NCBI GenBank assembly: GCA_947311435.1
Contig: CAMZKT010000075.1
Location: 1 to 64,000 of the forward strand
Source of the DNA: an uncultured Desulfocapsa sp.
GTDB lineage: Bacteria > Desulfobacterota > Desulfobulbia > Desulfobulbales > Desulfocapsaceae
DNA length: 64,000 nt
Reading direction: 5' to 3'
Shown: positions 1,281 to 53,211 of the stretch, piece after piece
Numbering within the stretch: position 1 is the first letter of the stretch
Layout: the number at the start of each line of letters is the position of its first letter
The notes under the pieces: model-generated
Database searches by the model: none
What the model was told of the DNA's origin: nothing
The model's input: only the letters and a program-made list of their open reading frames with translations
Program-made: the position numbers and the translations under genes

Positions 1281-4200
1281 ATGAGTAAAAAGTTTAACAT
1301 TATCTACAGTGGCATAATTGCTTTATTAGTTCTCTTTATGTTCTTATTGTTCTCCATGCAAAAGAGCGCTCAACTCAAAATTGATCTTCAAAATGCTCAT
1401 GAAACACTGGCAAAGAAAGATCAGATCCTGCAAAAAACTATCGCTTCAGCTCAAAGCGACAGAAACAAAACCAAGCTTATTCCAGAACTCACTACTAATA
1501 TTTCAGAACTTGAAAACGAAGTAAAAACATACAAAAAGCAACTGGAACAGCTTGAAACTGTGTACCAACAACAAAAAGACTCCAGCAATGAGAAAACTAT
1601 AGAGTTGAAGGCACTTCAGAGTGACATCAAGGCGCAACAAGAATCTCTTTCAGAGTCTAAACAGTCCAAGAAAAGTTCAGAAGAAAAAACAGGCGAACTC
1701 TCCGCCGGTCTTTCAGTATCAAAAGAATTGCTTGCCAAAAAAGAACTGCAGCTTAACAAGCTCACAACCACACTTGAGGAAAAATCTGCTGCTATTGCCG
1801 CTCTCAATAAGAAACTTGCATCGACCGAAAAATCTCTACACCTTTTAGAATCCGCAAAAGCGACAAACGAAATGAACCTCTCGCTGGTTCTTGACGAATT
1901 ACAGAACAAAAATGCCAAATTCCATTCTGACAAATCTGAGTTAGACCCTACGAACCTGGCGGCTCCCAGTGCAAACAACGAATTAAACCTCAATCTGATC
2001 CTTGACGAACTCATCCAGAGAACCAAACTTGCTAACGAGCTACAGGAACGAATTAAGTTACTTGAATCACAAACTTCCAAACCAGCTGCCGGTCACAAGA
2101 ATCAGCAGACCATTCAAAAAACCAAAAAGCTTTTTCAGGAAGCAAACAGCGACATCTCACTAAACCTTTCCCTGATTCTTGACGAATTACTCAGCAAAAC
2201 CCAACAGGCCGACGAATTACAGGCCAGGATCAAGAGTCTTTCTGGAAATATAGTGCAGGGAACAAACGCTGCGAACAATGCTGTCGTACCAGAAGTTCAG
2301 AGTCTCATGAAACAAATGGACCAAGACACACTCTCTCTTTCTCTGGTCGAACAGAAACTCCTGGAAGCAAACAGCAGGATTCAGAATCTTGAGATAGCTC
2401 AATCTTCTCTACAATCCAAAATAGAAGAACAAAGTACGCGTATCCTTGCTCTTCTTGATGAATTACAAACAAAAGAAAGTCTTCTTTTGGCTGCTCATGA
2501 AGAGCTGCAGCAACAGCACTTGAACAGTCAGACAATCGCTAGCGAACTGGAAAATCTCCGTTTAGAATCAACAGAGGACAAGCAAAAACTTGCTAAATTA
2601 CAGATGACTCTTGACAAGAAAATCAGAGCATTTGAAGAGCAAGTCAAAGCGTCTTCATCCGTTACAACGCCATTACATGAGAAAATTGCATCTCTTGAGG
2701 CCCAACTGAAGAAATTACGCCAAAACAACTCTCTTGTTTCCAGCAAAAAAGACACCCTTGCGCAAGAACTTGTTACTACCAAAACCTCCCTCAAAGAAGC
2801 TCTGGCGCAAGTGACACTGCTCAGCACAGAAGTTCAATCTGCCCAGACTGCACTTCAACAAGTGGAAAACACTCGACTTACACTCACTTCTGAAACAGAG
2901 GGAAAAGAACGTGCCCTTGAACAAGTTCAAACCGAATATGCTGCATTGTCCAACACCTATGCTGATCTTGAAAAAAAACTTGCAGAGCAATCTTCATTAC
3001 ATGCCGAAAAAACTGCTGCCCTTGAACAGCAATTAGTCGATGCTGTTAGCAGCGAAGAAAAACTCGCTGAGGAAAACAAAGCAATTCTTTCTCAAGTTGC
3101 AGACTTGCAAAACGCTAACAATTCACTCACAGAAGAGCTGACGCAAACCAAGATAGCCCTTCAGGAAAAACTCAGCCAACTTGCACAGTTAACAAACGAA
3201 AAAAATGCATTAGCCTTGCAGATAGAAGGATTCACTAAAGAGCAACAGCCAAAAGACAATTCCCTTGAAAACTTCCAGACACAGATAGCACTGCTCAGTA
3301 CTCAAGTCGAGGCTACCAGTGCAGAAAAAAAGCAGGAACAAGAAGCACGTCTTACTTTGGCTGCTGAGCTTGGAACCACCAAAGCTGCTCTTAAGCAAAC
3401 AGAAGAAAAATATTCTTCCCTTAGTGACCAGTTCACCAGGCTTAAAGCTCAAAGACAAGATGCAACAAGTCAAGAGAAAGAAGAAATCTCTTCACTACAG
3501 AATCTATTAAAACAGCAGACTTCATCAATCGAGGAACTGCAAAAGGAGTTCGACGTTAAGCTTCTTGAGACACAGACGTCACTCGACAAAGCCCTGGGGG
3601 AATCCACAGCTTTGAAAGCAGAAGTGGAAAAGCTTATTGCAACCGTCTCAGAAAAAGAAGAAACTATCCAAAATCTTACAAACACAATTTCAGAAACAAA
3701 CAGTGACGAAGCTCAAAAAAACACATTGCTGAATCAGGAAATGACTGAAGCCAAATCAGTTCACGACAAACAACTCATCGAATATGAAGCTCGACTGAAA
3801 GAACAGGAAAACTCCATCCTCGAGCTCACCACAAAGCTTGCGGACAGTGCGGAAAAATTAAGCCAGGCTCAAGCAGGTCTCGATCAAAGAACCGCACAAT
3901 TACAAGAAAAAGAAGCGGCCATTACACAAAAACAACAGGCTATCCTAAGGCTGACTGAAAAAGCAAATATTGCGGAAACGACCAGCAGTCAGAACACTGA
4001 AACACTTCGTACATTTGAAGAAGAAATCAAATCTCTCCAGCAAACTGTCACGGCCTTGACAGAAGAACGGGATCGGCTTCTTCTTGTAAACAGTGATACC
4101 GATGAAGATGGAATCAATGACGCCGATGACACCTGTCCCGGGACGCCAAAAGGTGCGACCGTCAATTCAAATGGTTGTGAAGAAGATACAGACAACGATG

Positions 4201-4688
4201 GTCTTGCTGATCGTCTTGACCTTTGCCCTGACACAATTCCTGGCTCCCAGATTGACAGTGTCGGCTGTAGTGCAGATCAAAAGACTGTTATTCTAAAAGG
4301 AATCACTTTCCAGTTTGGTACTGCTGATCTTACAGAAGATGCTCACTCAGTACTTGATGAAGCCGCAGTAATCCTTCAAGGCAATCCTGATATCTATATG
4401 GAAGTTGCGGGACATACCGACTCAAGCGGAGACAGCGGAAGGAACTTGATTTTGTCCACCAAACGCGCAGAGGCTGTTGTCTCGTACCTTGTCTCAGCAG
4501 GTGTCTCCATTGATCGCCTTCAGGCAAAAGGATATGGTTCGGAGCAGCCTATAGCCGAGAACACAACCAGAGAAGGACGGGCAAAAAACCGACGAGTTGA
4601 GTTAAAAAGAATTGAAAAGACCACACTCCAGGAAAATGTTGAACCACCTCAAGATACAGTAGAAAACCTTAACAAAACTGAGGAGTAA
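1281..4688 (+). CDS. Giant coiled-coil protein with TSP3-like and OmpA C-terminal domains
   Basis: This 1135-residue envelope protein has three parts. An uncleaved N-terminal membrane anchor spans residues 9-26. A very long Glu/Gln/Lys/Ser-rich coiled coil runs over about residues 27-930. The end carries two TSP3-like calcium-binding stretches (DTDEDGIND near residue 938 and DTDNDGLAD near 974) and an OmpA-like peptidoglycan-binding domain (from about 1007, with GHTDSSGD near 1043 and RVELKR at the end). The inferred role is to tether the inner membrane to peptidoglycan or the outer envelope across a large distance. Within the coil, a LxLxLxLDEL motif recurs near residues 198, 236, 294 and 388, which suggests internal duplication. 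The start ATG follows GAGGAA. The gene appears monocistronic, with a promoter at 1163 and a terminator at 4708. Confidence 0.9.
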   Translation: MSKKFNIIYSGIIALLVLFMFLLFSMQKSAQLKIDLQNAHETLAKKDQILQKTIASAQSDRNKTKLIPELTTNISELENEVKTYKKQLEQLETVYQQQKDSSNEKTIELKALQSDIKAQQESLSESKQSKKSSEEKTGELSAGLSVSKELLAKKELQLNKLTTTLEEKSAAIAALNKKLASTEKSLHLLESAKATNEMNLSLVLDELQNKNAKFHSDKSELDPTNLAAPSANNELNLNLILDELIQRTKLANELQERIKLLESQTSKPAAGHKNQQTIQKTKKLFQEANSDISLNLSLILDELLSKTQQADELQARIKSLSGNIVQGTNAANNAVVPEVQSLMKQMDQDTLSLSLVEQKLLEANSRIQNLEIAQSSLQSKIEEQSTRILALLDELQTKESLLLAAHEELQQQHLNSQTIASELENLRLESTEDKQKLAKLQMTLDKKIRAFEEQVKASSSVTTPLHEKIASLEAQLKKLRQNNSLVSSKKDTLAQELVTTKTSLKEALAQVTLLSTEVQSAQTALQQVENTRLTLTSETEGKERALEQVQTEYAALSNTYADLEKKLAEQSSLHAEKTAALEQQLVDAVSSEEKLAEENKAILSQVADLQNANNSLTEELTQTKIALQEKLSQLAQLTNEKNALALQIEGFTKEQQPKDNSLENFQTQIALLSTQVEATSAEKKQEQEARLTLAAELGTTKAALKQTEEKYSSLSDQFTRLKAQRQDATSQEKEEISSLQNLLKQQTSSIEELQKEFDVKLLETQTSLDKALGESTALKAEVEKLIATVSEKEETIQNLTNTISETNSDEAQKNTLLNQEMTEAKSVHDKQLIEYEARLKEQENSILELTTKLADSAEKLSQAQAGLDQRTAQLQEKEAAITQKQQAILRLTEKANIAETTSSQNTETLRTFEEEIKSLQQTVTALTEERDRLLLVNSDTDEDGINDADDTCPGTPKGATVNSNGCEEDTDNDGLADRLDLCPDTIPGSQIDSVGCSADQKTVILKGITFQFGTADLTEDAHSVLDEAAVILQGNPDIYMEVAGHTDSSGDSGRNLILSTKRAEAVVSYLVSAGVSIDRLQAKGYGSEQPIAENTTREGRAKNRRVELKRIEKTTLQENVEPPQDTVENLNKTEE

Positions 4689-4951: not shown

Positions 4952-7417
4952 ATGACAAACCTGTTTAAATACTGGACATATAGAGTCTTCGCTCCCGGTG
5001 CCATCTTGCAAAGTACCTATAAGGCATTCCAGGAACTCCTGGCATGCGACGGACGATGCCATGAATTGATGGCCGAATTGGAAGAGCTCTATTATCAAGG
5101 GAAAAAAGAAGATTTTTGTAAAATCTCTCGTATGTATGCTGCCCTTGCTGAAAATGTTAAGGGCATGGTGACAAGCCTTGACAGGATGTCTCCTGGCAGC
5201 TACGTAGACCTTCAAGCCTATTTCCGTAAATTTGATTTCTATTCTCGTTTCTTTCTGGCTCCTCCAACCCTTTCTTTTGGTAAGCCCTTTGTTCTGACCC
5301 TATCTGACCCTGCAATGACAACAGCTCTTGCAGGGTCTAAGACCACAACCCTAGTCAAACTTTCCCGGGAATTGAATCTCACCATTCCTGAAGGGTTTGT
5401 CATTACAACTAACTGCTTTTCCTATCTTCTTGAGTACAACAATCTTCGTCCTGTTATTAACGAATTACTCGCCTCAACCAATATTCAACAGCCAAATGAA
5501 CTCAACAGGATATCGACGAAACTAAGAAAAATCATCGAGAATTCGGACATTCCCCGGGATATTGAGATAGCTGTCCTAAAGGCAGGGGCCACCATCGCCA
5601 AAAGCTGCGCCCCCAATCAACTTTTTGCTATTCGTAGCAGTGCACTCAACGAAGATGAGCACTGTTCTTTCGCTGGTCAATATGACACTTTTTTAAACAT
5701 TTCTATACATGAGCTGATGAAACACTACCTGAAGGTAGTAAGCAGTAAATATAGCCCCGAAGCGCTTGCATACCGCATCAACTCAGGCCTGAGCGACGAA
5801 GAAACCCCAATGGCTGTCATGGTTGTAACCATGATCGATCCTATCGCCGCAGGTGTTATATACACAGCAGATCCTTCCGGCATAAGAGAAGACTCTCTAT
5901 TTATTCACGCCACTGGGGGACTTGGAGATGGTGTTGTCAGCGGAACGGTTAACCCCGATGTGTTTACAATTTCAAGAACCAATGTTGGCCAGAAGAATTG
6001 TCGGCCTTGCAAAGGTGATCTCCTTTCAAGATCACAACTCAATCTACTAAAGAGTACTGCACTAAAGATAGAATCACATTTCAATGAAGCTCAGGACATC
6101 GAATGGGCCATTGACCAAAAAGGCACACTGATATTTCTTCAGTGTAGAGCCTTACGAATATATAAGAAAAAAATATCCTCTGTAGGTGGCAATACCCACA
6201 ATCTTCCCCCTCCCCTTTTTACTGCAGGTGTTATGGCAGCGTCGGGCATCTGTTCCGGGAATGCCTGGTGCCCGGATGGTGAATCTTTTGAAACAATGAT
6301 TCCAAATGGCGCAATTCTCATAATAGACGAACCGCTACCAAGTTATGTGAAGATGCTGAGTCAGGTGAGCGGAGTCATTGCCAGAAGTGGCCACAGCAGC
6401 GGTCATTTTGCCACCGTTTGCCGAGAATTTGGGATCCCTCTTCTCTTAGGAGTCGGAGATTCCATCCAACTTATCGCTCATGGGCAGGCCATAACCCTGT
6501 CGGCAAATGACACTGCCGCATACTCTGGTATTGTGCCCAATATCCCCCAGAAGACACCTGGATATATATGCCACAACCACCTGCCATTTTACAAAAAATT
6601 ACGATCCATTCTGGACTTTGTTACTCCTTTGAAATTAGTGGATCCCAATTCACAGAATTTTTCTCCAGAATCCTGTAGATCTTTCCACGATATTATCCGA
6701 TTTTCTCATGAAAAAGCTGTCCAGGCAATGTTTTCAATTGGTGAGCGTTGTAGTGGTATAAAAGGCAAAAAAAAGAAACTACAAGATTCACTCCCCTTTG
6801 ATGTATACCTTGTTGATGTGGATGGAGGTCTAGAAAAGAGTTCCACAGACATTGACACTATCCCCGTAACGGCAATATGTTCAACACCTTTTTTAGCATT
6901 ATGGCGGGGTTTAAATCACCCGGATATAACCTGGGAAAATCACAACTACTACAACTGGAAAAACTATGATCAGCTCGCCATGAGTGATGCCTTTGTTTTT
7001 CAATCAAAATCAGAATCTGCCAGCTACGCAGTACTTGGTAAGCATTATTTAAATATGAATATCCGTTTTGGCTATCACTTTACCGTCCTCGATACCCTTT
7101 GCGAACCTCATTCGACCAGCACTAATTATTTAAATATGCGTTTTGCCGGTGGTGGTGGTGAGTATGCAGGACGTGAGTTACGACTCACCTACCTCACAAA
7201 AATTCTCACTCGCCTGAACTTTAAAGTCAGTTGTAAAGGTGACCTTCTCGATGCAAAAATCAGTGGGGGGCCGGCATCTGTTCTTGAAGGACGTATAGAA
7301 ACACTTGGAAAATTACTGGGGCTGAGCAAACAGATGGATATACGTCTTAAAAATGCTGAAATGGTGAATCAGTTTGTGGACTCCTTTTTCATCGAAAATA
7401 ATTCGTCAACGAGTTGA
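4952..7417 (+). CDS. PEP synthase-like phosphotransferase lacking the C-terminal barrel
   Basis: After about 120 residues of unrecognised helical sequence comes a PPDK/PEP-synthase N-terminal ATP-binding domain (about residues 125-400). It includes GSKTTTLVKLSRE and FAIRSSALNEDEHCSFAGQ. Next is a phosphohistidine swivel domain with the PEP-utiliser signature GHSSGHFATVCREFGIP near residues 478-494, where the second His is the expected phospho-acceptor. The last 280 residues do not look like the PEP-binding TIM barrel. A true PEP synthase needs that barrel, so the phosphoryl acceptor is probably something else. Residue spacing otherwise looks intact, so it may be an active dikinase-like enzyme. 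The next gene is a phosphatase and then an NtrC regulator, suggesting a signalling role. No strong Shine-Dalgarno precedes the ATG. Confidence 0.8.
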   Translation: MTNLFKYWTYRVFAPGAILQSTYKAFQELLACDGRCHELMAELEELYYQGKKEDFCKISRMYAALAENVKGMVTSLDRMSPGSYVDLQAYFRKFDFYSRFFLAPPTLSFGKPFVLTLSDPAMTTALAGSKTTTLVKLSRELNLTIPEGFVITTNCFSYLLEYNNLRPVINELLASTNIQQPNELNRISTKLRKIIENSDIPRDIEIAVLKAGATIAKSCAPNQLFAIRSSALNEDEHCSFAGQYDTFLNISIHELMKHYLKVVSSKYSPEALAYRINSGLSDEETPMAVMVVTMIDPIAAGVIYTADPSGIREDSLFIHATGGLGDGVVSGTVNPDVFTISRTNVGQKNCRPCKGDLLSRSQLNLLKSTALKIESHFNEAQDIEWAIDQKGTLIFLQCRALRIYKKKISSVGGNTHNLPPPLFTAGVMAASGICSGNAWCPDGESFETMIPNGAILIIDEPLPSYVKMLSQVSGVIARSGHSSGHFATVCREFGIPLLLGVGDSIQLIAHGQAITLSANDTAAYSGIVPNIPQKTPGYICHNHLPFYKKLRSILDFVTPLKLVDPNSQNFSPESCRSFHDIIRFSHEKAVQAMFSIGERCSGIKGKKKKLQDSLPFDVYLVDVDGGLEKSSTDIDTIPVTAICSTPFLALWRGLNHPDITWENHNYYNWKNYDQLAMSDAFVFQSKSESASYAVLGKHYLNMNIRFGYHFTVLDTLCEPHSTSTNYLNMRFAGGGGEYAGRELRLTYLTKILTRLNFKVSCKGDLLDAKISGGPASVLEGRIETLGKLLGLSKQMDIRLKNAEMVNQFVDSFFIENNSSTS

Positions 7418-7431
7418 TACAACTGAATAAC

Positions 7432-7470
7432 GTAACTGTGAGAGGAGACTGCTCCCCGTAAGCAGTTATC
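7432..7470. repeat. REP-like TAACT palindrome
   Basis: GTAACTG at 7433-7439 and CAGTTATC at 7463-7470 bound a short palindromic stretch. Read on the minus strand from 7470 it begins GATAACTGCTTACGGGGAGC, which resembles copies at 30258-30411, 37691-37716 and 51006-51075. Confidence 0.4.
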
Positions 7471-7499
7471 ATTTGATTTTATTTAACACCCAACACACT

Positions 7500-8480
7500 A
7501 TGTCTTATGAACTCACCTGGATCACGTCCCAGCTTGCAGTAGGCCATGCTCCCATGTCTTATGAGGAATTGGATTCTATAAAAGAACAGGGTATACGCAC
7601 CATTGTCAACCTCTGTGCAGAGTTCAGCGACCTTCATGAAATCGAAGAACAGGCAGGTTTTGAGGTCTACTACCTCCCCATACACGATGAATGCACACCT
7701 GAAATGGAGGATATGGAGAAAGCACTTCAATGGTTTGACGAAGCAATGTATCTCAACAAAAAGATATTGGTTCATTGCCGGCATGGAATTGGACGAACAG
7801 GTACTTTTGTTTCAGCCTATTTACTTCGTCGCGGCCTGGGACTGAAACTTGCCGAACGGACATTAAAACCAACACGAGCCACCCCCTCAAACTACAACCA
7901 GTGGAGATTATTAAAAAGATACTCAAAGCAACAAGGTAAATTGACACTTCGTGAGGCTTCAATCCATGATACCAACACCATTAATCTCAGCCCATTTTTT
8001 CGTGAATACGAGGCAATCACGAACGCTCATACAATCCATGAAAACGCAGGGTGTCCTGAATCTTTAGTTAATGGAAAATGTTGCCATGAATATTTTGAGT
8101 TGACCCTTGTAGAATCCGTTTACGTAAGCCACCATATGAACATCTTGCTCAGCAACAATAGACGTGAAGACTTAATCAGCAGTGCTGCTAATCGTTCTAA
8201 CCATCACGCCAAAAATCAGACTAATTTTGTTTGTCCACTTTTATGCGACAAGCACTGTCAAATCTTTTCCAAAAGACCAATTCACTGCCGAAGACTTACT
8301 AACGGCGTAAGAAAATCTTTTATCAATTCGACACTCGACAAACTCTCAAAAGATATCTTTTTCTCATTGACAAACTCCTTTCCTCCGGAGGATTCTTCCT
8401 ATTTTTCTATCCTTGACACCATCACCGGACGTTTTGTCCAGTACTATTTTCAATCCATGCTTCAGGTTTCTAACAAATAA
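7500..8480 (+). CDS. Dual-specificity/tyrosine phosphatase with Cys-rich C-terminal domain
   Basis: The 326-residue protein begins with a compact protein phosphatase domain. The P-loop HCRHGIGRTG lies around residues 91-100, with the nucleophile Cys near 92, and an upstream HDE acid loop near 61 supplies the likely general acid. The C-terminal 150 residues carry clustered cysteines (CPESLVNGKCC near 184-194 and CPLLCDKHC...HC near 246-264). These resemble YkgJ-type zinc or Fe-S chelating modules. Cytoplasmic; its substrate is unknown, and the phospho-His/phospho-protein chemistry of the preceding PEP-synthase-like enzyme is an obvious candidate partner. I chose ATG 7500 over TTG 7473, although neither has a good Shine-Dalgarno. 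Its stop codon abuts the ATG of the next gene, so the two are translationally linked. Confidence 0.85.
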   Translation: MSYELTWITSQLAVGHAPMSYEELDSIKEQGIRTIVNLCAEFSDLHEIEEQAGFEVYYLPIHDECTPEMEDMEKALQWFDEAMYLNKKILVHCRHGIGRTGTFVSAYLLRRGLGLKLAERTLKPTRATPSNYNQWRLLKRYSKQQGKLTLREASIHDTNTINLSPFFREYEAITNAHTIHENAGCPESLVNGKCCHEYFELTLVESVYVSHHMNILLSNNRREDLISSAANRSNHHAKNQTNFVCPLLCDKHCQIFSKRPIHCRRLTNGVRKSFINSTLDKLSKDIFFSLTNSFPPEDSSYFSILDTITGRFVQYYFQSMLQVSNK

Positions 8481-9902
8481 ATGATTAACAAAACCATCAG
8501 AAAAAACAGAAAGCTGCTGATTGTTGATGACGAACGGGATATACTTGTTCTTCTTAAAAAAGTACTCTCGAAAAAATGTGTCTGCAACGTTGCCATCACA
8601 GAATCAATAAAAGAGGCCCAAGAACTAATCAATACCTGGAAACCAGAGGTGGTACTTACCGATATCGTTCTCCCTGAGAGTGATGGACTACAACTTTTGG
8701 ACTATGTAACAAAAACAGATCCTACAATTTCTTGTATCGTAATGACTGGTTATGGAACTATTGAAATGGCTGTCAATGCACTCAAAATTGGAGCATATGA
8801 TTTTTTCGAGAAACCATTTGATAACGACAAAATAAGTAGAGTTGTAAAACGTGCGCTTGAACGAACAAGACTTTTAAGAGAAAACCATCACCTCCGACAA
8901 AAGATCCTAACTAACTGTAAGAAAACAACTTTTATCGGGGAGTCCCAAGCTCTCCAGCAGGCAATTGACCATCTTGTTCGTTTTGGCCAAAGTGATGCAA
9001 CTGTTCTTATTCGTGGACAATCAGGGACGGGAAAGGAAATCGCCGCCCAAACGATACATCTTGCCTCAAAGCGAGCAGACAGAAAAATGGTGACTGTTAA
9101 CTGCCCCGCACTCCCCGAACACATACTGGAAAGCGAACTATTTGGGTACTGTAAGGGTGCTTTTACCGGAGCAGACCTTGATAAGAACGGACTCTTTCTT
9201 GAAGCTGAAGGATCGACAATTCTCCTCGATGAAATTGGTGATATTCCCATTAGTCTACAAACAAAACTCCTAAGAGTATTACAAGAAAAGGAGATCCAAC
9301 CCCTGGGACAAACGAAAACATTGAAAATAGATGTCCGTGTTCTTGCCTCCACAAATCAAAATCTTGAAGAAAAAATTACGTGTGGTTCTTTTAGAGAAGA
9401 TTTATACTACCGACTTAACGTCATGAGCGTTGTTTTACCTTCTCTTTGCGAGATGAAGGAAGATATCCCTTTACTGGCCTACCATTTCCTAAAAAAATAC
9501 GAGGCCGAATATCAACGTAATAATATGTCGCTAAGCACAGAAACTATAAATTATCTGATAAATCGTCATTGGCCTGGGAATGTCAGAGAATTTCAGAACT
9601 GCCTTAACAGGGCGGTTCTATTAGCTCCCAATGACGTACTAACGCCAAAAAATTTCCTTGAAGACCCCACCCCTTACTCAACACACACACTTTCTACATA
9701 CAATTCTTCCTCCCTTCACAACCTTCCTTACAAGGACGCTAAACTCCAACTTTTGTCTGATTTCACTATTTCTTACTTAGGCACCCTCCTCCAAGAACAA
9801 AATGGTAATGTCTCCGCTGCAGCAAGAAAAAGTGGCATGGGGCGTCAGGCTTTCCAAAGGCTCATGAGAAAATATTATCTTCAATCCGAGTCATTCCGCT
9901 AA
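8481..9902 (+). CDS. Sigma-54-dependent response regulator, NtrC family
   Basis: Three domains are visible. A receiver domain (about 1-120) has the acidic pair VDDE and a phospho-acceptor Asp near residue 60 in LTDIVLPESDG. An AAA+ domain (about 140-375) has Walker A GQSGTGKE and the sigma-54-contacting GAFTGAD loop. A Fis-type helix-turn-helix follows at the C-terminus (NVSAAARKSGMGRQAFQRL). It should activate sigma-54 promoters when phosphorylated. The intact GAFTGA motif argues for true sigma-54 activation. A strong sigma-54 promoter candidate lies 234 bases downstream of its stop, at 10136-10151, so the next transcription unit is a likely target. The cognate kinase may be the PAS kinase at 10807. 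The ATG directly follows the phosphatase stop. Confidence 0.95.
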   Translation: MINKTIRKNRKLLIVDDERDILVLLKKVLSKKCVCNVAITESIKEAQELINTWKPEVVLTDIVLPESDGLQLLDYVTKTDPTISCIVMTGYGTIEMAVNALKIGAYDFFEKPFDNDKISRVVKRALERTRLLRENHHLRQKILTNCKKTTFIGESQALQQAIDHLVRFGQSDATVLIRGQSGTGKEIAAQTIHLASKRADRKMVTVNCPALPEHILESELFGYCKGAFTGADLDKNGLFLEAEGSTILLDEIGDIPISLQTKLLRVLQEKEIQPLGQTKTLKIDVRVLASTNQNLEEKITCGSFREDLYYRLNVMSVVLPSLCEMKEDIPLLAYHFLKKYEAEYQRNNMSLSTETINYLINRHWPGNVREFQNCLNRAVLLAPNDVLTPKNFLEDPTPYSTHTLSTYNSSSLHNLPYKDAKLQLLSDFTISYLGTLLQEQNGNVSAAARKSGMGRQAFQRLMRKYYLQSESFR

Positions 9903-10135: not shown

Positions 10136-10151
10136 TGGCACAGTTTATGCT
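10136..10151 (+). promoter_or_regulatory. Sigma-54 promoter candidate
   Basis: TGGCACAGTTTATGCT matches the consensus TGGCACG-N4-TTGCW at all but two positions, with the invariant GG and GC exactly 10 bases apart. It lies in the 416-base gap (9903-10318) between the NtrC-type activator and the small membrane protein gene. The remainder of that gap holds the TTGTTGCA repeat and nothing else recognisable. Confidence 0.7.
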
Positions 10152-10318: not shown

Positions 10319-10810
10319 ATGAGACGAAATGCTCTTTCCTTAATACTGCCATCTTTCACCTTTCTGACCGTGCTTGGCACGCTACTAGATCCTTCCCCAT
10401 CATGGGCTCTTCAGTCTCATGAAACTCCTGAAGGTTTATATGTGCATCAGATGGCTCATATTATTTTTATGGTATCCCTGGCATATCTCGCGTGGGGCAT
10501 CCATAGAATTGCCTTCAGCGGACGAGGCTGGAAACACCTCCAATTTTTCTGTTTTTTAATGTTTCTCTGGAACGGAATCGCTCTCATAGGACACAGCGTC
10601 TCAATCACCATTAACAAAAGCGATTTTTTCACTGAAAGCACTTATTGGTATACTGAACTATCCGGTCCCTTCACTCTATCAAAAGTCATATATTACATAG
10701 CAAAACTTGATCACATAGCTAGTGTTCCTGCCCTTTTATTTCTTTTTTTGGCATTGCGTTCTTTTTATATTTCTGCCTGTACAGAAAAACGACCGAGGGA
10801 GGATTCATGA
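10319..10810 (+). CDS. Small multi-pass membrane protein with conserved-looking histidines
   Basis: I do not recognise this 163-residue family. It has an N-terminal signal-like hydrophobic segment (residues about 6-30, ending in WALQS) followed by about four transmembrane helices. Histidines sit at or near helix ends: HQMAH near 44-48, GIH near 61, GHS near 91 and DHIA near 131. The helical-bundle topology with several His could bind heme or a metal, but no definite motif proves it. GGAG lies about 10 bases before the ATG. Its stop overlaps the start of the histidine kinase gene by ATGA, so the two are co-translated. The inferred role is a membrane partner or co-sensor of that kinase. Expression probably comes from the sigma-54 promoter at 10136. 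Confidence 0.8.
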   Translation: MRRNALSLILPSFTFLTVLGTLLDPSPSWALQSHETPEGLYVHQMAHIIFMVSLAYLAWGIHRIAFSGRGWKHLQFFCFLMFLWNGIALIGHSVSITINKSDFFTESTYWYTELSGPFTLSKVIYYIAKLDHIASVPALLFLFLALRSFYISACTEKRPREDS

Positions 10811-12372
10811 CAACCCTTTCTCTGTATCCGACCATCATTGCTGATGTCATTGGATCCTTCATCATTATTATATTGTCTTTCCTTTCTTTACGGTATGCCT
10901 TCCTTCTTACAAACCAGCATCCTGAAAACTTCATCTGGAATTTCCTCTATTATCTTTGTTTTGCCCTAGCCCTTTTTGCAATTTCCAGAGCAGTGGGGCA
11001 CATAGTCAAACAATTTCTTTTACTGACAAACAACAGAGCCACCTGGCAACTCCTCTCTCCATTTTCGGGCGGCTTTAACACTCTGATGATGATCTCTGTT
11101 TCCGCTGTTACTATTTATTATCGTAAGGGCGTTGAAGCATTCCGCCTGGTTGAAAGTAATGCTGAGAAACTCCGTATAGCCAATACGCAGCGAATCAATG
11201 CTGCCAATGAAATGATTCGCATGAACCTTCACCTTGAAGAAATAGTTAACGAACGTACAGCAGAGCTCTCTCAATCTGAAAAAAAATTCCGGCATTTTTT
11301 CGAAAACTCAAGAGATATGGTCTATTTCTGTGATAAAAACGGCTTCATTTCAGACATAAATAAAAGTGGTTTGCAGATGATGGGCTTCAAAAAACTCCCT
11401 AAATATAATCTCAATATTCATTCTTTCTTTAAAGAAGGAGAAACCCTTGAGGAGTACCTGCTTTCTCTTCACCATGTCGGGTTTGTAAGAGATTTCGAGA
11501 TAGAAATGAAACGACAGGACGGCACTATTTGCAATGTTCTTCTTACTGCCAATACCATTCTCAACAAGAGTGGGGAAATAACAGGATGTGAAGGAATTGC
11601 AAAGGACATGACCAAAATCAAAAGAATTACATCCACATTGGTCAGCCAGGAAAAGATGGCATCTATTGGCCAACTTGCCGCAGGAGTTGCCCATGAAATC
11701 AACACCCCACTGGGAATCATTCTGGGCTACAGTCAACTCATGCAGGACGATTTCCCTGCGGACAGTGAAGAAATGGAAAATCTAAAGGTCATAGAGAGGC
11801 AGACCAGAGCCTGTAGAAACATTGTTGCAGATTTATTGAAATTTTCCCGACAAACAGAAGGTATCAGAGAAGAACTGGACCTCAATGAAATTTTAACTGA
11901 AGTCCTGACAGTTACCGAACACACCCTTAATCTCGATTTCATCCAAATCGTCCAAAAACTCAACCACTCCTTACCTACTGTAGTATGCAACGCTGAAAAA
12001 ACTCGCCAGGTATTCTTCAATATCATTAACAACGCCCATCATGCTATGGAAAATGGAGGAGAATTAACAATCGTTACCAGGGTTGAAGAGCACACCAGAA
12101 TGGTTGTTGTTTCATTTCAGGATACAGGAAAAGGAATTCCTCAAAATATTCAGAAAAGAATTTTCGAACCATTTTTTACCACAAAGTCGGTTGGCAAAGG
12201 CACAGGACTTGGTCTGTCGGTGTCCTACGGCATCATGGAGGAATACGGAGGTTCCATTAGCGTTGAAAGTCCAGTGTGCAACAAAGATGAGAATTCAACA
12301 GTTCCTGGAACAGTTATCTGTCTTCGATTTCCAATGGTAAAAAAGAGTCGACCGCTGTTCACAATACCATAA
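10807..12372 (+). CDS. PAS-containing sensor histidine kinase
   Basis: The 521-residue kinase has about three N-terminal transmembrane helices (residues about 8-105) and a short linker coil. A PAS domain follows (about 160-275, FRHFFENSRDMVYFCDKNG). The HisKA domain has the phospho-acceptor His near 296 in VAHEINTPLG. The HATPase_c domain has an N box NIINNAHHAMENGG, a G1 box DTGKGIP and a G2 box GKGTGLGLSVSYG. All catalytic boxes are intact. It sits in the inner membrane and overlaps the preceding membrane protein gene by four bases, which suggests a joint sensing unit. Likely phosphorylation targets are the lone receiver protein at 12413 and/or the NtrC-type regulator at 8481. The signal is unknown. 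Confidence 0.94.
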   Translation: MTTLSLYPTIIADVIGSFIIIILSFLSLRYAFLLTNQHPENFIWNFLYYLCFALALFAISRAVGHIVKQFLLLTNNRATWQLLSPFSGGFNTLMMISVSAVTIYYRKGVEAFRLVESNAEKLRIANTQRINAANEMIRMNLHLEEIVNERTAELSQSEKKFRHFFENSRDMVYFCDKNGFISDINKSGLQMMGFKKLPKYNLNIHSFFKEGETLEEYLLSLHHVGFVRDFEIEMKRQDGTICNVLLTANTILNKSGEITGCEGIAKDMTKIKRITSTLVSQEKMASIGQLAAGVAHEINTPLGIILGYSQLMQDDFPADSEEMENLKVIERQTRACRNIVADLLKFSRQTEGIREELDLNEILTEVLTVTEHTLNLDFIQIVQKLNHSLPTVVCNAEKTRQVFFNIINNAHHAMENGGELTIVTRVEEHTRMVVVSFQDTGKGIPQNIQKRIFEPFFTTKSVGKGTGLGLSVSYGIMEEYGGSISVESPVCNKDENSTVPGTVICLRFPMVKKSRPLFTIP

Positions 12373-12412: not shown

Positions 12413-12787
12413 ATGGCTAGAATCATAATCCTTGACGATGTAAAAGATGCCTGCATGCTTGTAGGAAAAATCCTGACGAAGCAAGGTCACGACACAACTG
12501 CATTCACTGATGAAGAAGACGTCGTTGATTTTGTCAAAGATAATCCTGTTGACCTGGCAATACTGGATATTAAACTCAAAAAAATGAGTGGAATAGAGGT
12601 ACTGGCTATTCTCAAGCAGATTCAACCGACGATCCAGGTCATCATGCTCACTGGCTACCCAAGTATTGAAACTGCACGGGACGCTTTGAGTAAAGGTGCA
12701 AGTGACTACTGTGTAAAACCCATTGACCGTGATGAACTTATTGAGAAAGTAAGTCAGGTATTAATCAAGGTAAAGAAGAATGAGTAA
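12413..12787 (+). CDS. Single-domain response regulator (receiver only)
   Basis: This 124-residue CheY-like receiver has no output domain. It shows LDDV near the N-terminus, a phospho-acceptor Asp near residue 52 in AILDIKLKKMSG, the switch Thr in MLTGYP and the Lys in CVKPID. AAGGAA precedes the ATG. It follows the PAS kinase by 40 bases and is probably its first phospho-acceptor, acting by protein-protein contact or as a phosphorelay intermediate or phosphate sink for the NtrC-type protein. The missing DNA-binding domain is the natural family form rather than a truncation. Confidence 0.93.
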   Translation: MARIIILDDVKDACMLVGKILTKQGHDTTAFTDEEDVVDFVKDNPVDLAILDIKLKKMSGIEVLAILKQIQPTIQVIMLTGYPSIETARDALSKGASDYCVKPIDRDELIEKVSQVLIKVKKNE

Positions 12788-13021
12788 TTTTAATACTACT
12801 TACATCCAACAAGGAACAGAAAACAGAAAAAATCATACTCACTCAAAGAATGCATATTTTATTCATTTTCTGAAGTTCAAGATTTAGATAAGAGGTTCAC
12901 AAACAAACATTGCTACTCATCAAGTACTGACAAGGAGGTGTCAAAAGAGCAGTCAAGCAGCGCATCGGCAGAATACGAAATTTCAAAACATACTATTTTT
13001 TACAAACACAGGGAGGAAATA

Positions 13022-14713
13022 ATGAAGAACTACTTATGGCCCTCAATGATTATCCAGTTGGCTATAATCATTTTTGGAATATCACCTGGCTTAGCCGAAG
13101 TGAACCTTTCAACAGCTGAATTGAAAGCAGGTGAAGTTATCACTTTTGAAGGCACCATTGCCCCTGGAGATGATCTCTATATTGCCGTAGCACAGCAAAA
13201 GATGTTTAGATCAACTGATTCCGATGGTAAATTTGAGAAAAAGAAACTACCAAAAAATGGCAAGAAATATGGATTTTCGCCAGATACAGCTATTCCACCT
13301 CTGTATTATTTGCTAACAACCAATAGAGAAGCATTCGGAAAAGATTCTGAAAAAAAATTTGGTGGCCCTTCCTTTATTTTCCAAAAAGGCCAGGGACTCT
13401 ATACCACAAGCATGTTCAAACTGAAAAAAAGTTTTGACGATGTCGGCCCGAAAGAAATGCTTGGTCCCATCAAAACAACTGAACAATGGAACATGCTCAA
13501 ATGGGGCAACGAAAACAAATACGGAATTAACACTGTTGTAAAGGAAGGCAACAAAAAGGGGAAAATCGTCATTTTTTCAAGAAGTGTTATCGGTGATGCC
13601 TCCAGTGGCAACTACTGGGACAAGGGTACAAGCATCAATCTCGACAAGAAAACCGGCAAGTACACAGCATCCTTTACGACATTTCGTCATACACCACCAG
13701 ACACGACGTTTGATGTTTATGTGAACGGCGCAAAGAGTTCATCATTTACTGTTGTAAAAAATGGTTTCTGGCTGGACAAAGGCTATCGCTACATGAATCC
13801 ACTATGGATCATCATAGGGGCGATTGCCGTGGGAACCTACTTCTCCATGATTGGTGCTGCTGGTGGTATGCTCATGGGAGCTTTTCAGGCACTTGTTGTT
13901 CAAACAGCAGGGCCAATCGGTATTAATGCTGCCAATGTTCTTCGGCCATCAAATATCGCCCTCACTCTCTTTTCACCACTTGGCTCGTTTTACCGCTTTG
14001 CAGTAGTTGAAAGACGAGTTGCCTGGCCGGTTGGCCTCTCCTTCGGTGCGGGTATCTTCATTGGCTCTGTCTGGCTTGGCGGGTACGTTACTCAGCATCT
14101 TTCCATGGTCGCTTATAAAGAATGGCTGGGGGTTCTTGTTGTCATCATGGGAATCAAAACCTTGATGGAAATGTCCCCATCGGCCATGAACAAGCGGAAA
14201 AATATTAAGGCCATGACTCAGAAATTTAATGCCGCAGTCAAGAAGGCCAAAGAAACCGGTGGTGCAGTAGAAATGGGTTCCATTGAACCAGTCAAAGCTG
14301 GTATATTTGACTATCGGTTTAAATTCTGGGGAGAAGAATTCAAAATCAATCCCCTTCTTTTTGCCTTTCTCGGCATAATCGTAGGTATTGCATCAAGAGC
14401 TTTTGGTATTGGCGGTGGATTCCTTCTGGTTCCTATGATGACAACCATTGCAGCACTGCCCATGTATGTCGCAGTACCTATTTCTTTAATCGGAACATGT
14501 TTTTCAAGTATCGGATCCTTTATAGGGTATGTAATAAATGGATATCTTCCTGACCTAATGCTGGCAATCGCCATTATTATTGGTGGTTTTGCCGGTGGTA
14601 TGCTTGGCAGCCGATTTCAAAAATTATTCAGTGAAAAGACGTTGAAAATTATTTTAGCCTGCACTCTCTTCTTTCTCTTTTTCCGCTTCCTGAAAATTGA
14701 GTACTGGATATAG
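13022..14713 (+). CDS. TauE/SafE family permease with large N-terminal extracytoplasmic domain
   Basis: This 563-residue inner-membrane protein starts with a signal peptide (MKNYLWPS... to about SPGLAE). A 230-residue extracytoplasmic domain, apparently beta-rich, follows. Then come about eight transmembrane helices of the TauE/SafE fold, with the two glycine-rich repeats GAAGGMLMGAF and GIGGGFLLVPMM. Family members export or import sulfonates, sulfite or other small sulfur anions. The large N-terminal domain is absent from typical TauE and may bind substrate or a partner. ATG 13022 is preceded by GGGAGG and begins the signal peptide; the in-frame GTG at 12938 would add 28 hydrophilic residues and is rejected. 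It lies between a two-component system and a PhsA/PsrA-like enzyme, which fits sulfur-anion transport, but the substrate is inferred. Confidence 0.88.
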   Translation: MKNYLWPSMIIQLAIIIFGISPGLAEVNLSTAELKAGEVITFEGTIAPGDDLYIAVAQQKMFRSTDSDGKFEKKKLPKNGKKYGFSPDTAIPPLYYLLTTNREAFGKDSEKKFGGPSFIFQKGQGLYTTSMFKLKKSFDDVGPKEMLGPIKTTEQWNMLKWGNENKYGINTVVKEGNKKGKIVIFSRSVIGDASSGNYWDKGTSINLDKKTGKYTASFTTFRHTPPDTTFDVYVNGAKSSSFTVVKNGFWLDKGYRYMNPLWIIIGAIAVGTYFSMIGAAGGMLMGAFQALVVQTAGPIGINAANVLRPSNIALTLFSPLGSFYRFAVVERRVAWPVGLSFGAGIFIGSVWLGGYVTQHLSMVAYKEWLGVLVVIMGIKTLMEMSPSAMNKRKNIKAMTQKFNAAVKKAKETGGAVEMGSIEPVKAGIFDYRFKFWGEEFKINPLLFAFLGIIVGIASRAFGIGGGFLLVPMMTTIAALPMYVAVPISLIGTCFSSIGSFIGYVINGYLPDLMLAIAIIIGGFAGGMLGSRFQKLFSEKTLKIILACTLFFLFFRFLKIEYWI

Positions 14714-14800: not shown

Positions 14801-15412
14801 ATGGATGAACATATGGATACGCTATGGATTTTCATCATGTCCGTATCACAAAGGACAGGTGATTTGCTAACCCAGGTACTCTCACCATTGCATGTCTTTG
14901 GACCTGTTTTTGTACTGATCTTCCTTGCCGTTTGCAGCGTTATCATCACAAAAGTTCTTAACAGAATTATTATAACCAGGCGTTACATTGAACTGGAGAA
15001 AAATTTCAACCATTGGTTCATGATTCGACAAGAGGCCATGAAAGAGCCAGATTCAGTAAAAGCCAAACGACTTGCAAGGAACATCGATCAGGCCAAACTC
15101 AATCGCGCATACTACGACTATTTTTTGGAAGGCTTTTTATTAGGCCTCATACGAAATGTACTGCCGATCATGTTGATGGTTACTTATATCAACGAATATT
15201 ATCGTGCTGAAGAATTAAACCGTCTCTTTGGAAAAGCATGTATTTTTAGTTTTACGATCTCAGGCCAGTCGATTCCTGTTGGGGCTGTATTCTTTTATTT
15301 AAGCGCCCTCCTGTTCATCTACCTTGCCTGGTTTGTCTGTGGGCGGATTTTTATTCATAAAACCCGTAATGCGTCTGTAACCACACCAACCACATTGGTT
15401 GAAAACAGATAA
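14801..15412 (+). CDS. Small membrane protein, 203 aa, partner of the TauE-like permease
   Basis: I do not recognise this family. The protein has an N-terminal transmembrane helix (about residues 28-52), a cytoplasmic basic/acidic stretch (about 55-105), and two further helices (about 106-125 and 163-185). There are no cysteine or histidine clusters. AGGAGA precedes the ATG by 7 bases. The gene sits 87 bases after the TauE/SafE-like permease, with only a stem-loop between, so the two are probably co-transcribed. It may be an accessory subunit of that permease, but nothing in the sequence states a function. Confidence 0.75.
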   Translation: MDEHMDTLWIFIMSVSQRTGDLLTQVLSPLHVFGPVFVLIFLAVCSVIITKVLNRIIITRRYIELEKNFNHWFMIRQEAMKEPDSVKAKRLARNIDQAKLNRAYYDYFLEGFLLGLIRNVLPIMLMVTYINEYYRAEELNRLFGKACIFSFTISGQSIPVGAVFFYLSALLFIYLAWFVCGRIFIHKTRNASVTTPTTLVENR

Positions 15413-15536: not shown

Positions 15537-15597
15537 AGGAAAAGATGAAAAACAAGTCATTAACCAGCTATACAACTCTATGGAAGGAGAACGAATC

Positions 15598-17697
15598 ATG
15601 AAAAATTCTGTGTACACCCTGTGTGGAATGTGTACAGTCCGATGCCCGATCCGTGTTGAATCCGACAACAACAGCATTACCTGGATCGAAGGGAACATGC
15701 ACCTCCTTAATGGTGCCTTGTGTGCAAGAGGTACCGCAGGTAGAGCTCTCATTAAAGACCAGCAAAGACCTCAACAGCCACTAATCCGTGAAGGTGAAAG
15801 AGGAGAAGGGAAATGGCGTACTGCCACCTGGGATGAAACTCTGGATTATGTCGGAAATAAGCTGAAAGAAATTCAAAAGAAATATGGCCGTGAGTCTGTG
15901 GTGGTGTCGTCAAGAGGAGGCCCTTGGCAAAATATGTATAAAACTTTCTGCCACGCGATAGGTTCACCAAATTATACCAACCATGATGACACATGTGGCA
16001 GGAACACTCACCACGCCAGTCTTTCAATCAATGGTGTCGGGAGAAAAGGTTTCCAGTATGATATTAAGAATTCAAAACATCTGGTACTCTTTGGTCGTAA
16101 TACTTTTGACGCTCTACGCATCCCGGAAAACCGTCAAATCCTGGACATGCTTGATAATGGTGGTCGAATGACCTATGTCGATGTCCGTCAAACAAAAACA
16201 AGCAACAAAGCGAGTCGATTTTTCCTCGTCAGGCCTGGAACTGACTATGCGCTTCTTCTGGGGATGCTGCACCAGATTATAAAAGATGGCGTGTATGATA
16301 ATGATTTTGTAGCAAAATGGGTAACAGGTTTCAGCGAATTGTGTGATTTTGTACAACAGTACACTCCTGCATGGGCAGCAAAAGAGTGTGGAGTTAAAGA
16401 AGAATCCATTAAAGAATTTATCCAAGAAATAAGCGAAGATCGCCCCAATGTCATTTTCCATCCCGGCTGGATGCTCTCACGCTATAGAGATTCATTTTAT
16501 GCAAGTCGTGCAATCCATATAATTAATGCTCTCATGGGTTCCATTGAGCAAAAAGGCGGGTTACTGATTCCTCGAGGCCCAGGAGACTGCGGGAAGAAAG
16601 GCCCACGATCACTTGATTGTCCCAAACCTGATATTGAACGTGCGGACGGTTGCGGAACAAGGCACAATCAGTACGACAAAGGTCCAGGCCTACAACACTT
16701 GACCCTTGAGGCGCTAAGAACAGGAAAACCATACCCTCTCAAAGCATGGATTGCCATGCGACATGATCTCTTCACATCCATGCCCGACCCGGAAAGACAA
16801 AAAGACTTACTCAAGCAATGTGAACTTCTGGTGTCCATAGATGTCCATTACAGCGAATTTGGCTGGTATTCCGACGTAATCCTTCCACATTCAACATTTC
16901 TGGAACGAGACAACCACATAGTTGTTCAAAAAGGACCTAAACCACGACTGGCCCGTCGTAAGAAGGTCATTGATCCTGTGTTTGACACAAAACCTGGCTG
17001 GGAAATTTTCAAAGAACTTGCAGAACGTCTTGGTGCGGGAGAGTACTTCCCCTACAATTCCATCGAAGATCTATGGAACTGGCAGCTTGAGCCAACAGGC
17101 TACACTGTAAACGATTTTGATAAAAAGGGTTTTATCTCCCTAACCGAGAATCCTATTCCGCCACAACCTGATAAGCTGGAAGGGAAGTTTAAAACACCCA
17201 CTGGAAAAATTGAGATAATCAGTAGTGTTCTGACAAAAGCCGGGCTGGAATCATTACAACCCTACGAGACACCGGATGCTCCACCAGAAGGAAAATTCCG
17301 CCTCGTTTTTGGTCGTTGCGCTGTACACACACACAGTCACACCCAGAACAACCCACTCCTCAACGACATGATGCCGTATAATTATGTCTCAATCAACACC
17401 ATTAAAGCTGACAGTATGGGAATTAAAGACGGAGACTGGGTAGATGTCACAGGAGACGACGGATATTCTGGGACACTTCCAGCTCACGTTACCGAGTATA
17501 TTCACCCCGAGGCTGTATTTATGATTCATGGATTTGGTCGGCAGGTACCAAAGCAGACACGAACGTATCAAAAAGGAGCAAGCGATCAGCGTCTTATGGC
17601 TGGTCTCCTTGATAAACGCGATGAGGCAGGCGGAGGACTCAACCTCTGTGAATCTTTTGTCTCTATCCGCCGTAGTGAAAATCCTCCTGAGCTATAA
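15598..17697 (+). CDS. PhsA/PsrA-like molybdopterin oxidoreductase, cytoplasmic form
   Basis: The 699-residue catalytic subunit belongs to the DMSO-reductase superfamily. An N-terminal [4Fe-4S] site is formed by C9, C12, C16 and C42. The Mo/W-bis-MGD domains follow, with the likely metal-ligand Cys near residue 133 in DDTCGRN. A C-terminal dinucleotide-binding domain has the thiosulfate/polysulfide-reductase-like THSHTQNNPLLN region and a final RTYQKGASDQR stretch. There is no Tat signal, since the cluster begins at residue 9, so it should act in the cytoplasm, unlike PhsA or PsrA. ATG 15598 has GGAG upstream; ATG 15580 would contain the ribosome site. The next gene is its four-cluster ferredoxin partner and then nuoA. 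Substrate could be a sulfur compound, formate or another; family similarity favours sulfur chemistry. Confidence 0.88.
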   Translation: MKNSVYTLCGMCTVRCPIRVESDNNSITWIEGNMHLLNGALCARGTAGRALIKDQQRPQQPLIREGERGEGKWRTATWDETLDYVGNKLKEIQKKYGRESVVVSSRGGPWQNMYKTFCHAIGSPNYTNHDDTCGRNTHHASLSINGVGRKGFQYDIKNSKHLVLFGRNTFDALRIPENRQILDMLDNGGRMTYVDVRQTKTSNKASRFFLVRPGTDYALLLGMLHQIIKDGVYDNDFVAKWVTGFSELCDFVQQYTPAWAAKECGVKEESIKEFIQEISEDRPNVIFHPGWMLSRYRDSFYASRAIHIINALMGSIEQKGGLLIPRGPGDCGKKGPRSLDCPKPDIERADGCGTRHNQYDKGPGLQHLTLEALRTGKPYPLKAWIAMRHDLFTSMPDPERQKDLLKQCELLVSIDVHYSEFGWYSDVILPHSTFLERDNHIVVQKGPKPRLARRKKVIDPVFDTKPGWEIFKELAERLGAGEYFPYNSIEDLWNWQLEPTGYTVNDFDKKGFISLTENPIPPQPDKLEGKFKTPTGKIEIISSVLTKAGLESLQPYETPDAPPEGKFRLVFGRCAVHTHSHTQNNPLLNDMMPYNYVSINTIKADSMGIKDGDWVDVTGDDGYSGTLPAHVTEYIHPEAVFMIHGFGRQVPKQTRTYQKGASDQRLMAGLLDKRDEAGGGLNLCESFVSIRRSENPPEL

Positions 17698-17882
17698 TTT
17701 ATGGTATTCACATGATTTCAGACAAAGGAATAGATACTTGAGAGGACACAACATGGATTCAGATGTTACATCCTCGTGCCTTTTCACTCTTACAAATATG
17801 TTATTGCGTACCACCAGGAACGAATGTGCGAATAGAGGGAGTTAGCCTAAAGTTCACAAAAAAACAATGGAGAATTGAAACC

Positions 17883-18389
17883 ATGAGTAAATATTATGTG
17901 ACACAACGTGTGGAACGGTGTATTGGCTGCCGGGCCTGCGAAGCACATTGTAAAGATAAAAATAATTCTGCCAGGGATGCCTATTACTGTAAAATAATGG
18001 AAGTCGGTCCAAGAATCAAACATGGTATGCCTGTTTCTGATTTTGTGTATATGTCCTGTTTCCATTGCGAAAATCCCTGGTGCGTCGAGGCCTGTCCCAC
18101 CGGAGCCATGCAGCGAAGAGATAAAGACGGGATTGTTTTTGTTGCTGAGAAGCTCTGCGTTGGCTGCAAAGCCTGTATGACCGCCTGCCCGTGGGGTGTG
18201 CCACAATGGGACAGCAGAACAGGCAAGGTTGGAAAATGTGATCTTTGTATGGACAGAATCGATCAGGGACTCAAACCAGCCTGTGTAACAAAATGTCTTT
18301 CAGGTTGTCTCGAATTCACAACACCGGACAAATCATCGGACGCAAAACGGCAGAAATTCGCAGACCAACTCCTGCAAAACAAATCATGA
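17883..18389 (+). CDS. Four-cluster ferredoxin subunit (PsrB/HycB type)
   Basis: This 168-residue electron-transfer subunit has four [4Fe-4S] motifs: CIGCRACEAHC (13-23), CFHCENPWCVEAC, CVGCKACMTAC, and CDLC with a later CVTKC. The layout is that of PhsB, PsrB, DmsB and HycB. It should take electrons from the adjacent molybdoenzyme. No NrfD/PsrC-type membrane anchor is encoded beside it. Instead its stop is 10 bases before nuoA, which makes the complex I-like machine the natural next electron carrier. The start is ATG 17883, with GGAG about 10 bases upstream. The 185 bases between the molybdoenzyme and this gene hold no recognisable gene and could contain a separate nuo promoter. Confidence 0.93.
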   Translation: MSKYYVTQRVERCIGCRACEAHCKDKNNSARDAYYCKIMEVGPRIKHGMPVSDFVYMSCFHCENPWCVEACPTGAMQRRDKDGIVFVAEKLCVGCKACMTACPWGVPQWDSRTGKVGKCDLCMDRIDQGLKPACVTKCLSGCLEFTTPDKSSDAKRQKFADQLLQNKS

Positions 18390-51878: not shown

Positions 51879-51904
51879 GGGACGTTCATGATTTCATGCT
51901 TTTC
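51879..51904. repeat. Left 26-bp inverted repeat of the RAYT element
   Basis: This sequence is the exact reverse complement of 52940-52965. Its core CATGATTTCATG is itself a small palindrome. It overlaps the last codons and stop of the transposase gene. Such flanking palindromes are typical REP elements mobilised by RAYT proteins. Confidence 0.85.
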
Positions 51905-52910: not shown

Positions 52911-53211
52911 AATCACTCATACCATACCACCAATAAAAAGAAAAGCATGAAATCATGAACGTCCCCCCCCTGTTCAATTTCTTGATATGAGGAGGCCGAG
53001 GGATAATCTTTGGCAAAGGCTTTCGCCCCCAGGAATTCCCTGCGGCAAACCTTTGCGCTCGTTTTACCTGTATGGCAAGAATACCTGTTTCGCCATACAG
53101 GACAAAATTTCCCTTTTTTATTCCACCACCCCCGGATATGATATGAACAGATTGCAAAAGTAACTGCCACCCGCATAAATACATTTTCATAATAAAGGCT
53201 ATTTACCACAC
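52911..53211. other. Intergenic region right of the RAYT gene
   Basis: This 301-base gap holds the right inverted repeat (52940-52965) and a separate hairpin at 53067-53101, where CCTGTATGGC pairs with GCCATACAGG across 15 bases. I see no gene in it. A weak AAAGG lies about 15 bases before the thioredoxin-fold gene. Confidence 0.5.
52940..52965. repeat. Right 26-bp inverted repeat of the RAYT element
   Basis: This sequence is the perfect inverted partner of 51879-51904. It is followed by a C-run. With the left copy it defines an element of about 1087 bases (51879-52965). Confidence 0.85.

Follow-up and report, generated by a model that had tools for sequence, protein, structure and literature searches.

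Phosphotransferases with a swivelling histidine domain form a known superfamily, which includes phosphoenolpyruvate (PEP) synthase (PpsA) and pyruvate phosphate dikinase (PPDK). Some relatives combine an ATP-grasp domain and a histidine swivel to phosphorylate small molecules, as described for rifampin phosphotransferase (RPH; PMC4844700) and HpeHI (PMC12167813). Another, VadK (Rv1127c) of Mycobacterium tuberculosis, is a truncated PPDK relative that autophosphorylates on its swivel histidine and regulates metabolism (PMC13400623). Thus, relatives of the dikinases can be small-molecule kinases, and a truncated one can be a regulator. A PEP-synthase-like gene also belongs to the Desulfovibrio 'nitrate cluster' (DVU0251-DVU0245 / Dde_0597-0605; Korte et al. 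2014, PMC4001038), and full-text literature searches returned no description of this enzyme family apart from that paper's list of genes. Here, such an enzyme is described from a 64,000-nucleotide stretch of DNA of an uncultured Desulfocapsa sp. (assembly GCA_947311435.1, contig CAMZKT010000075.1, positions 1 to 64,000), referred to as the window. The enzyme (821 aa; 4952-7417, + strand) is followed by the gene of a predicted dual-specificity phosphatase (DSP). The best reading of the pair, behind which stands about half of our confidence, is a swivel-histidine phosphotransferase that is opposed by the phosphatase and gates the uptake of an anion.

The enzyme and its C-terminal domain

The enzyme consists of a helical N-terminal domain (residues 1 to about 105), an ATP-grasp domain (126-406), a swivel domain (450-518) carrying H485, and an undescribed C-terminal domain (about 530-815; 6539-7405, + strand). 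Pfam recognises PPDK_N (E 1.8e-69) and the PEP-utilizers mobile domain (E 2.2e-12) over the second and third of these, and nothing else. Six residues, namely K130, R228, E384, Q397, R399 and the swivel H485, are invariant among 46 homologues and align with the ATP-grasp residues and swivel histidine of RPH and PEP synthase. From what is known of the family, this conservation predicts that H485 is phosphorylated in an ATP-dependent manner. Of the features that define PEP synthase (TIGR01418 / PRK06464), the ATP-grasp domain with its catalytic residues and the swivel domain with its histidine are present, and the C-terminal PEP/pyruvate barrel is absent. The NCBIfam PEP synthase models are the best matches of the enzyme solely through those two domains, and their cut-offs are missed widely (232 against 739.75 bits and 239 against 598 bits). 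The RPH model NF041857 is more distant (177.6 bits, cut-off 999) and differs in domain order, as the histidine domain here is central. A separate, canonical PEP synthase is encoded elsewhere in the same genome, on contig C1.

A first-pass annotation, made from the sequence alone, had proposed that the ATP-binding and phosphohistidine domains are kept without a PEP barrel, and that the last 280 residues differ from PEP synthase. Both proposals are borne out by Pfam, profile comparison, AlphaFold and Foldseek. A search with the C-terminal 290 or so residues found no Pfam family at E<=0.5; 104 relatives gave just scattered, weak, single-member Pfam matches; and comparison with PDB sequences, singly and as a profile, gave no match. 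A barrel fold, which would speak against the annotation, was looked for by profile and by structure prediction and was not seen. Comparison of the domain by hhalign with a PEP-barrel profile returned a probability of 0.1%, while the same profile against the barrel of this genome's own PEP synthase, used as a control, returned 98.6%. AlphaFold models of the full enzyme (pLDDT 85.4, pTM 0.83) and of the C-terminal domain alone (87.1 and 0.76) agree on an alpha+beta fold of helices with antiparallel strands and no (beta/alpha)8 barrel. In Foldseek searches of the PDB, the full model returned PEP synthase, RPH and PPDK, and the C-terminal domain gave no match at E<=1e-3 (best E 0.08 or worse). A disguised PEP barrel is rejected on these grounds. 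Recurrent weak matches to arginine kinase (probability 0.41-0.85 over 73-91 columns, E 0.19-0.36) were not counted as evidence of kinship.

The domain is no product of decay, since it has its own set of invariant residues in the 104 sequences (F570, D580, R583, H586, E587, G653, H709, G733, G734, R744 and D796), among which identity to the window domain falls as low as 24%. We infer that it is a new acceptor domain within the swivelling-domain superfamily. It is also widespread: of 193 genomes sampled from the window's class, 160 have a match to it, and many of these carry several copies. A match in an acidobacterium has few relatives in its phylum (6 of 99 genomes). This is, therefore, a large enzyme family whose C-terminal domain lacks a Pfam entry and, in our PDB searches, any relative of known structure.

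Some paralogues have unusual neighbours or extensions. At L149:5650-17351, and also in L148 and L082, three enzyme paralogues are grouped with genes for receivers and kinases next to a TauE transporter, which in L149 is followed by an Alph_Pro_TM protein. Paralogues of 1040-1140 aa (L188:2355-5729, L070:10071-13505, L069:10494-13613) carry a C-terminal extension weakly similar to lectin-like domains (LamG / 3-keto-disaccharide hydrolase). In one subgroup, a protein like Enzyme I of the phosphotransferase system (PTS; TIGR01417) and a ThiL-like kinase (TIGR01379) are encoded directly 5′ of the enzyme. The family search behind these assignments covered L114 (5100-6893 and 6815-7891) and L120 (5791-8597; TIGR01417 at 542 bits), and the gene order is similar in L115, L119 and L131.

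Co-inheritance with a phosphatase

The next gene had been called a DSP-type phosphatase, and Pfam agrees (DSPc, PF00782 / PTP-SAK; 55.3 bits against a gathering cut-off of 33.5). The first-pass reading frame starts at TTG 7473, from which the residues below are numbered; orthologues align from ATG 7500, so that 326 aa is the likelier length (7500-8480, + strand). The HCx5R signature (HCRHGIGRT; H101, C102, R108) and the general acid D72 are conserved in 68 orthologues, and together with the score they make DSP activity the predicted one. A feature missed at first is a CxxCxxCC/YkgJ-like tail with four cysteines (C204, C254, C262 and C272), each kept in at least 90% of these orthologues. Some relatives also have YkgJ proteins, as single genes, adjoining the cluster.

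In a tree of 139 enzymes, the window protein falls in a clade of 93 (support 0.845), 89 of which have enough flanking sequence to be scored. The presence of a DSP was counted by six-frame profile search; simple picking of open reading frames undercounted some loci. A DSP lies directly downstream of the enzyme in 80 clade members and is fused to it in one more, that is, in 81 of 89. By contrast, none of the 46 enzymes outside the clade has a downstream DSP, and one has it upstream. Among 56 relatives, 24 of 34 DSP matches follow the enzyme directly in the same orientation, and in 23 of these the gap measures -2 to 114 bp. The fusion, found in a single genome, is one unbroken frame of 1259 aa (L198:9513-13292). 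The pair is, thus, ancestral in the clade and has been kept across many genera and families, far beyond chance. What is new here is the putative acceptor domain together with this dedicated phosphatase.

The phosphatase gene ends with TAA at 8478-8480, and the ATG of an NtrC-type regulator (8481-9902, + strand) follows at 8481 with no gap; the first-pass annotation had noted that the two genes abut. Pfam identifies its receiver, sigma-54 AAA+ and Fis-type helix-turn-helix domains, and the GAFTGA motif can be read in the translation. In contrast to the phosphatase, this gene is variable, with an NtrC-type gene within 9 kb of the enzyme in 53 of the 93 clade members and often a stand-alone receiver in its place in Desulfovibrionaceae. 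Thus, of the gene set proposed to be conserved, the phosphatase holds and the regulator does not, and there is no sign of phosphate transfer from enzyme to NtrC; a histidine kinase is encoded in the same cluster. A direct acceptor role for NtrC was considered and is unsupported, because NtrC varies between loci while the phosphatase stays. Genes for TauE, histidine kinases and receivers recur around the enzyme, including many outgroup enzymes without a DSP, and receiver proteins free of output domains recur next to it.

The unit is also larger than the three adjacent genes first noted, which do lie side by side. All on the + strand, it continues with a 163-aa protein (10319-10810) with no Pfam match, hydrophobic by eye and conserved directly 5′ of the histidine kinase (PAS, HisKA, HATPase; 10807-12372). 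A stand-alone receiver domain (12413-12787), an anion transporter of the TauE/SafE family, extended at its N-terminus by about 250 residues (12938-14713), and a 203-aa membrane-type protein conserved next to it (14801-15412) come next. Last are a PhsA-like molybdopterin oxidoreductase (15580-17697) and a 4Fe-4S electron-transfer subunit of the PhsB/DmsB type (17763-18389, with the real start probably 3′ of 17763). The best NCBIfam model of the oxidoreductase is thiosulfate reductase PhsA, with a score below its cut-off (507 against 694 bits). This is the order in the window lineage, and the best orthologous loci are syntenic with the window over the whole module, from the enzyme to the Fe-S protein.

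A sigma-54 (-24/-12)-like site, TGGCACAGTTTATGCT (10136-10151, + strand), precedes the operon of the 163-aa protein and kinase and has equivalents in 7 orthologous loci. Sites of this form (TGGCAC-N5-[A/G]TGC[A/T]) occur there in 8 of 28 loci against 0.06 expected, a significance that derives from the orthologue comparison of this one intergenic region, as across the whole window the pattern is no more frequent than chance would give (31 against 38.7 expected). Scans for sigma-70 promoters and terminators gave chance levels. In the window lineage, transcription of the kinase-transporter-oxidoreductase operon from this predicted promoter is probably activated by the NtrC-type protein.

Other observations concern neighbouring and related loci. 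Directly 5′ of the enzyme, and syntenic in L043 and L044, the window encodes a 1135-aa coiled-coil protein with thrombospondin-type repeats and an OmpA domain at its end (1281-4688). In related clusters (L051:6815-9664, L053:2783-5632), a 949-aa molybdopterin oxidoreductase replaces the PhsA-like protein, and in L053 it bears a nitrate-reductase-delta-like domain at its N-terminus. Far from the module, the start of the reading frame at 51894-52916 looks by eye like REP-associated (Y1) transposases.

A proposed phosphate switch on anion uptake and its alternatives

In the proposed mechanism, ATP would be bound and cleaved in the ATP-grasp domain and the phosphate parked on H485, as the invariant catalytic residues suggest. 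It would then pass to an acceptor held by the C-terminal domain rather than to pyruvate. The DSP with its four-cysteine tail may strip this same phosphate or dephosphorylate the product, which the co-inheritance and the fusion point to. Beside a two-component system, the pair would control the entry of an anion by way of the adjacent TauE/SafE-type transporter, either directly or through expression. The anion is probably a sulfur oxyanion, such as thiosulfate, which the PhsA-like oxidoreductase would reduce. An anion-sensing switch is likelier than sugar synthesis because the enzyme is co-inherited with the phosphatase across sulfate-reducing bacteria and lies next to two-component regulators and, in most cases, an anion transporter. 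The earlier suggestion of a phosphoryl signalling circuit in place of gluconeogenesis stands to this extent, given the missing barrel, the separate PEP synthase, the conserved and once fused pair, and a published link to a transporter and a receiver; NtrC as a fixed part of the circuit falls away. The two checks named in advance as able to refute it, on the barrel fold and on joint conservation of the genes, did not do so.

That link is genetic and comes from Desulfovibrio. In PMC4001038, D. vulgaris mutants with insertions in DVU0246 (PEP-synthase-like), DVU0247 (receiver), DVU0250 or DVU0251 (TauE) grow as well in 100 mM nitrate as in its absence, and a mutant in DVU0245 (DSP) remains inhibited by it. 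Loci of Desulfovibrionaceae and related bacteria (L185, L192, L193, L232, L239) encode PtxB, kinase, receiver and enzyme, mostly with the DSP next and some with TauE, and loci such as L185 and L193 have the gene types and order of DVU0251-0245. If transcription follows the order in L185, polar effects of inserting into the enzyme gene could reach the DSP alone, the loss of which gives no resistance; nitrate sensitivity therefore seems to require the enzyme itself.

Several points weigh against an anion switch. Of the 89 clade members, 8 have no DSP next to the enzyme. The window cluster is devoid of the PtxB-type phosphonate-binding gene of the Desulfovibrio cluster (the PtxB profile found no match within 9 kb of the enzyme), and the Desulfovibrio homologues were matched by domain content, gene order and the gene types named in PMC4001038. 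In that paper, the DSP mutant of D. alaskensis G20 is, unlike that of D. vulgaris, mildly nitrate-resistant (+2.08), and a 'leaky thiosulfate transporter' is the authors' own hypothesis.

Perhaps the enzyme is instead a small-molecule dikinase like RPH (PMC4844700) or HpeHI (PMC12167813), which share its domains; this is a tentative alternative. The C-terminal domain, whose invariant Asp/Arg/His/Glu set looks like an active site, would then bind a metabolite, the DSP would hydrolyse it or handle a by-product, and the regulators would act on expression only. The oxidoreductase in the cluster and the PTS Enzyme-I-like and ThiL-like genes 5′ of some relatives would suit such a role. Nevertheless, a downstream metabolic step poorly explains why loss of the D. 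vulgaris enzyme or receiver has the phenotype of transporter loss (PMC4001038), or why output-less receivers recur beside the enzyme. As for the acceptor, the chances of a protein, and hence of signalling, are about even, and a small molecule, and hence metabolism, is possible with lower confidence.

A more specific reading, which we consider unlikely, is a PEP-synthase-derived protein kinase that, commanded by a receiver, uses the new acceptor domain to phosphorylate a membrane transport protein or a partner protein, with the DSP and its four-cysteine tail as dedicated eraser. If true, bacteria would have a further route to regulatory phosphate beside two-component systems and Ser/Thr kinases, and many sulfate-reducing bacteria would hold such a kinase in several copies.

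In PPDK, the regulatory threonine lies two residues before the catalytic histidine. It is improbable that the DSP removes a regulatory phosphate from the enzyme itself in the manner of PDRP and PPDK, making the pair an on/off-regulated phosphotransferase. Direct adjacency and the fusion would agree with this, but the threonine position is Ala in 39 of 46 sequences (Ser in the window enzyme), for which reason it was rejected as the DSP substrate, and no PDRP-like kinase is found among the neighbours examined. Still less credible is that the enzyme and DSP are neighbours in separate processes. The eight clade members without the DSP and its absence downstream of outgroup enzymes would fit, and against this stand conservation over genera and families, clade specificity, the fusion and the nitrate phenotypes shared within the Desulfovibrio cluster (PMC4001038). 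Finally, a gluconeogenic PEP synthase with a barrel diverged past recognition can practically be set aside, since the best NCBIfam models are PEP synthases only through the ATP-grasp and swivel domains, at 232-239 bits against cut-offs of 598-740, no barrel appears by profile, predicted fold or Foldseek, many genomes hold multiple copies, and this one has its canonical enzyme elsewhere.

Comparison with known systems

A phosphatase-opposed phosphotransferase controlling anion uptake would be a phosphate switch, with writer and eraser, that derives from a metabolic dikinase; this theme came to light only recently, with VadK. The link of the enzyme family to a phosphatase, two-component proteins and an anion transporter suggests a mechanism behind the nitrate resistance of Desulfovibrio, a published but unexplained phenotype that bears on souring control. 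The nitrate cluster resembles the window in uniting TauE, histidine kinase, receiver, PEP-synthase-like and DSP genes; it differs in its PtxB-type binding protein, which is absent from the window cluster, and the NtrC-type activator and PhsA-like oxidoreductase set the window cluster apart. For its enzyme, the accessible text of PMC4001038 gives annotated domains and no mechanism.

With PpsA and PPDK, the window enzyme shares the order of ATP-grasp and swivel domains and all tested catalytic residues, but it has no PEP/pyruvate barrel, carries an extra helical N-terminal domain and scores under every family cut-off. RPH and HpeHI also join an ATP-grasp domain and a histidine swivel to an acceptor domain for something other than PEP; RPH is ordered ATP-acceptor-His and HpeHI is split into two subunits, whereas the C-terminal domain described here matches no solved fold by Foldseek. 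VadK is likewise derived from PPDK, and its site of phosphorylation, the swivel histidine, is conserved in the window enzyme as a predicted one. In contrast to VadK, a truncated PPDK of about 50 kDa, the window enzyme has a large conserved domain at the position of the barrel and is adjoined by phosphatase and two-component genes.

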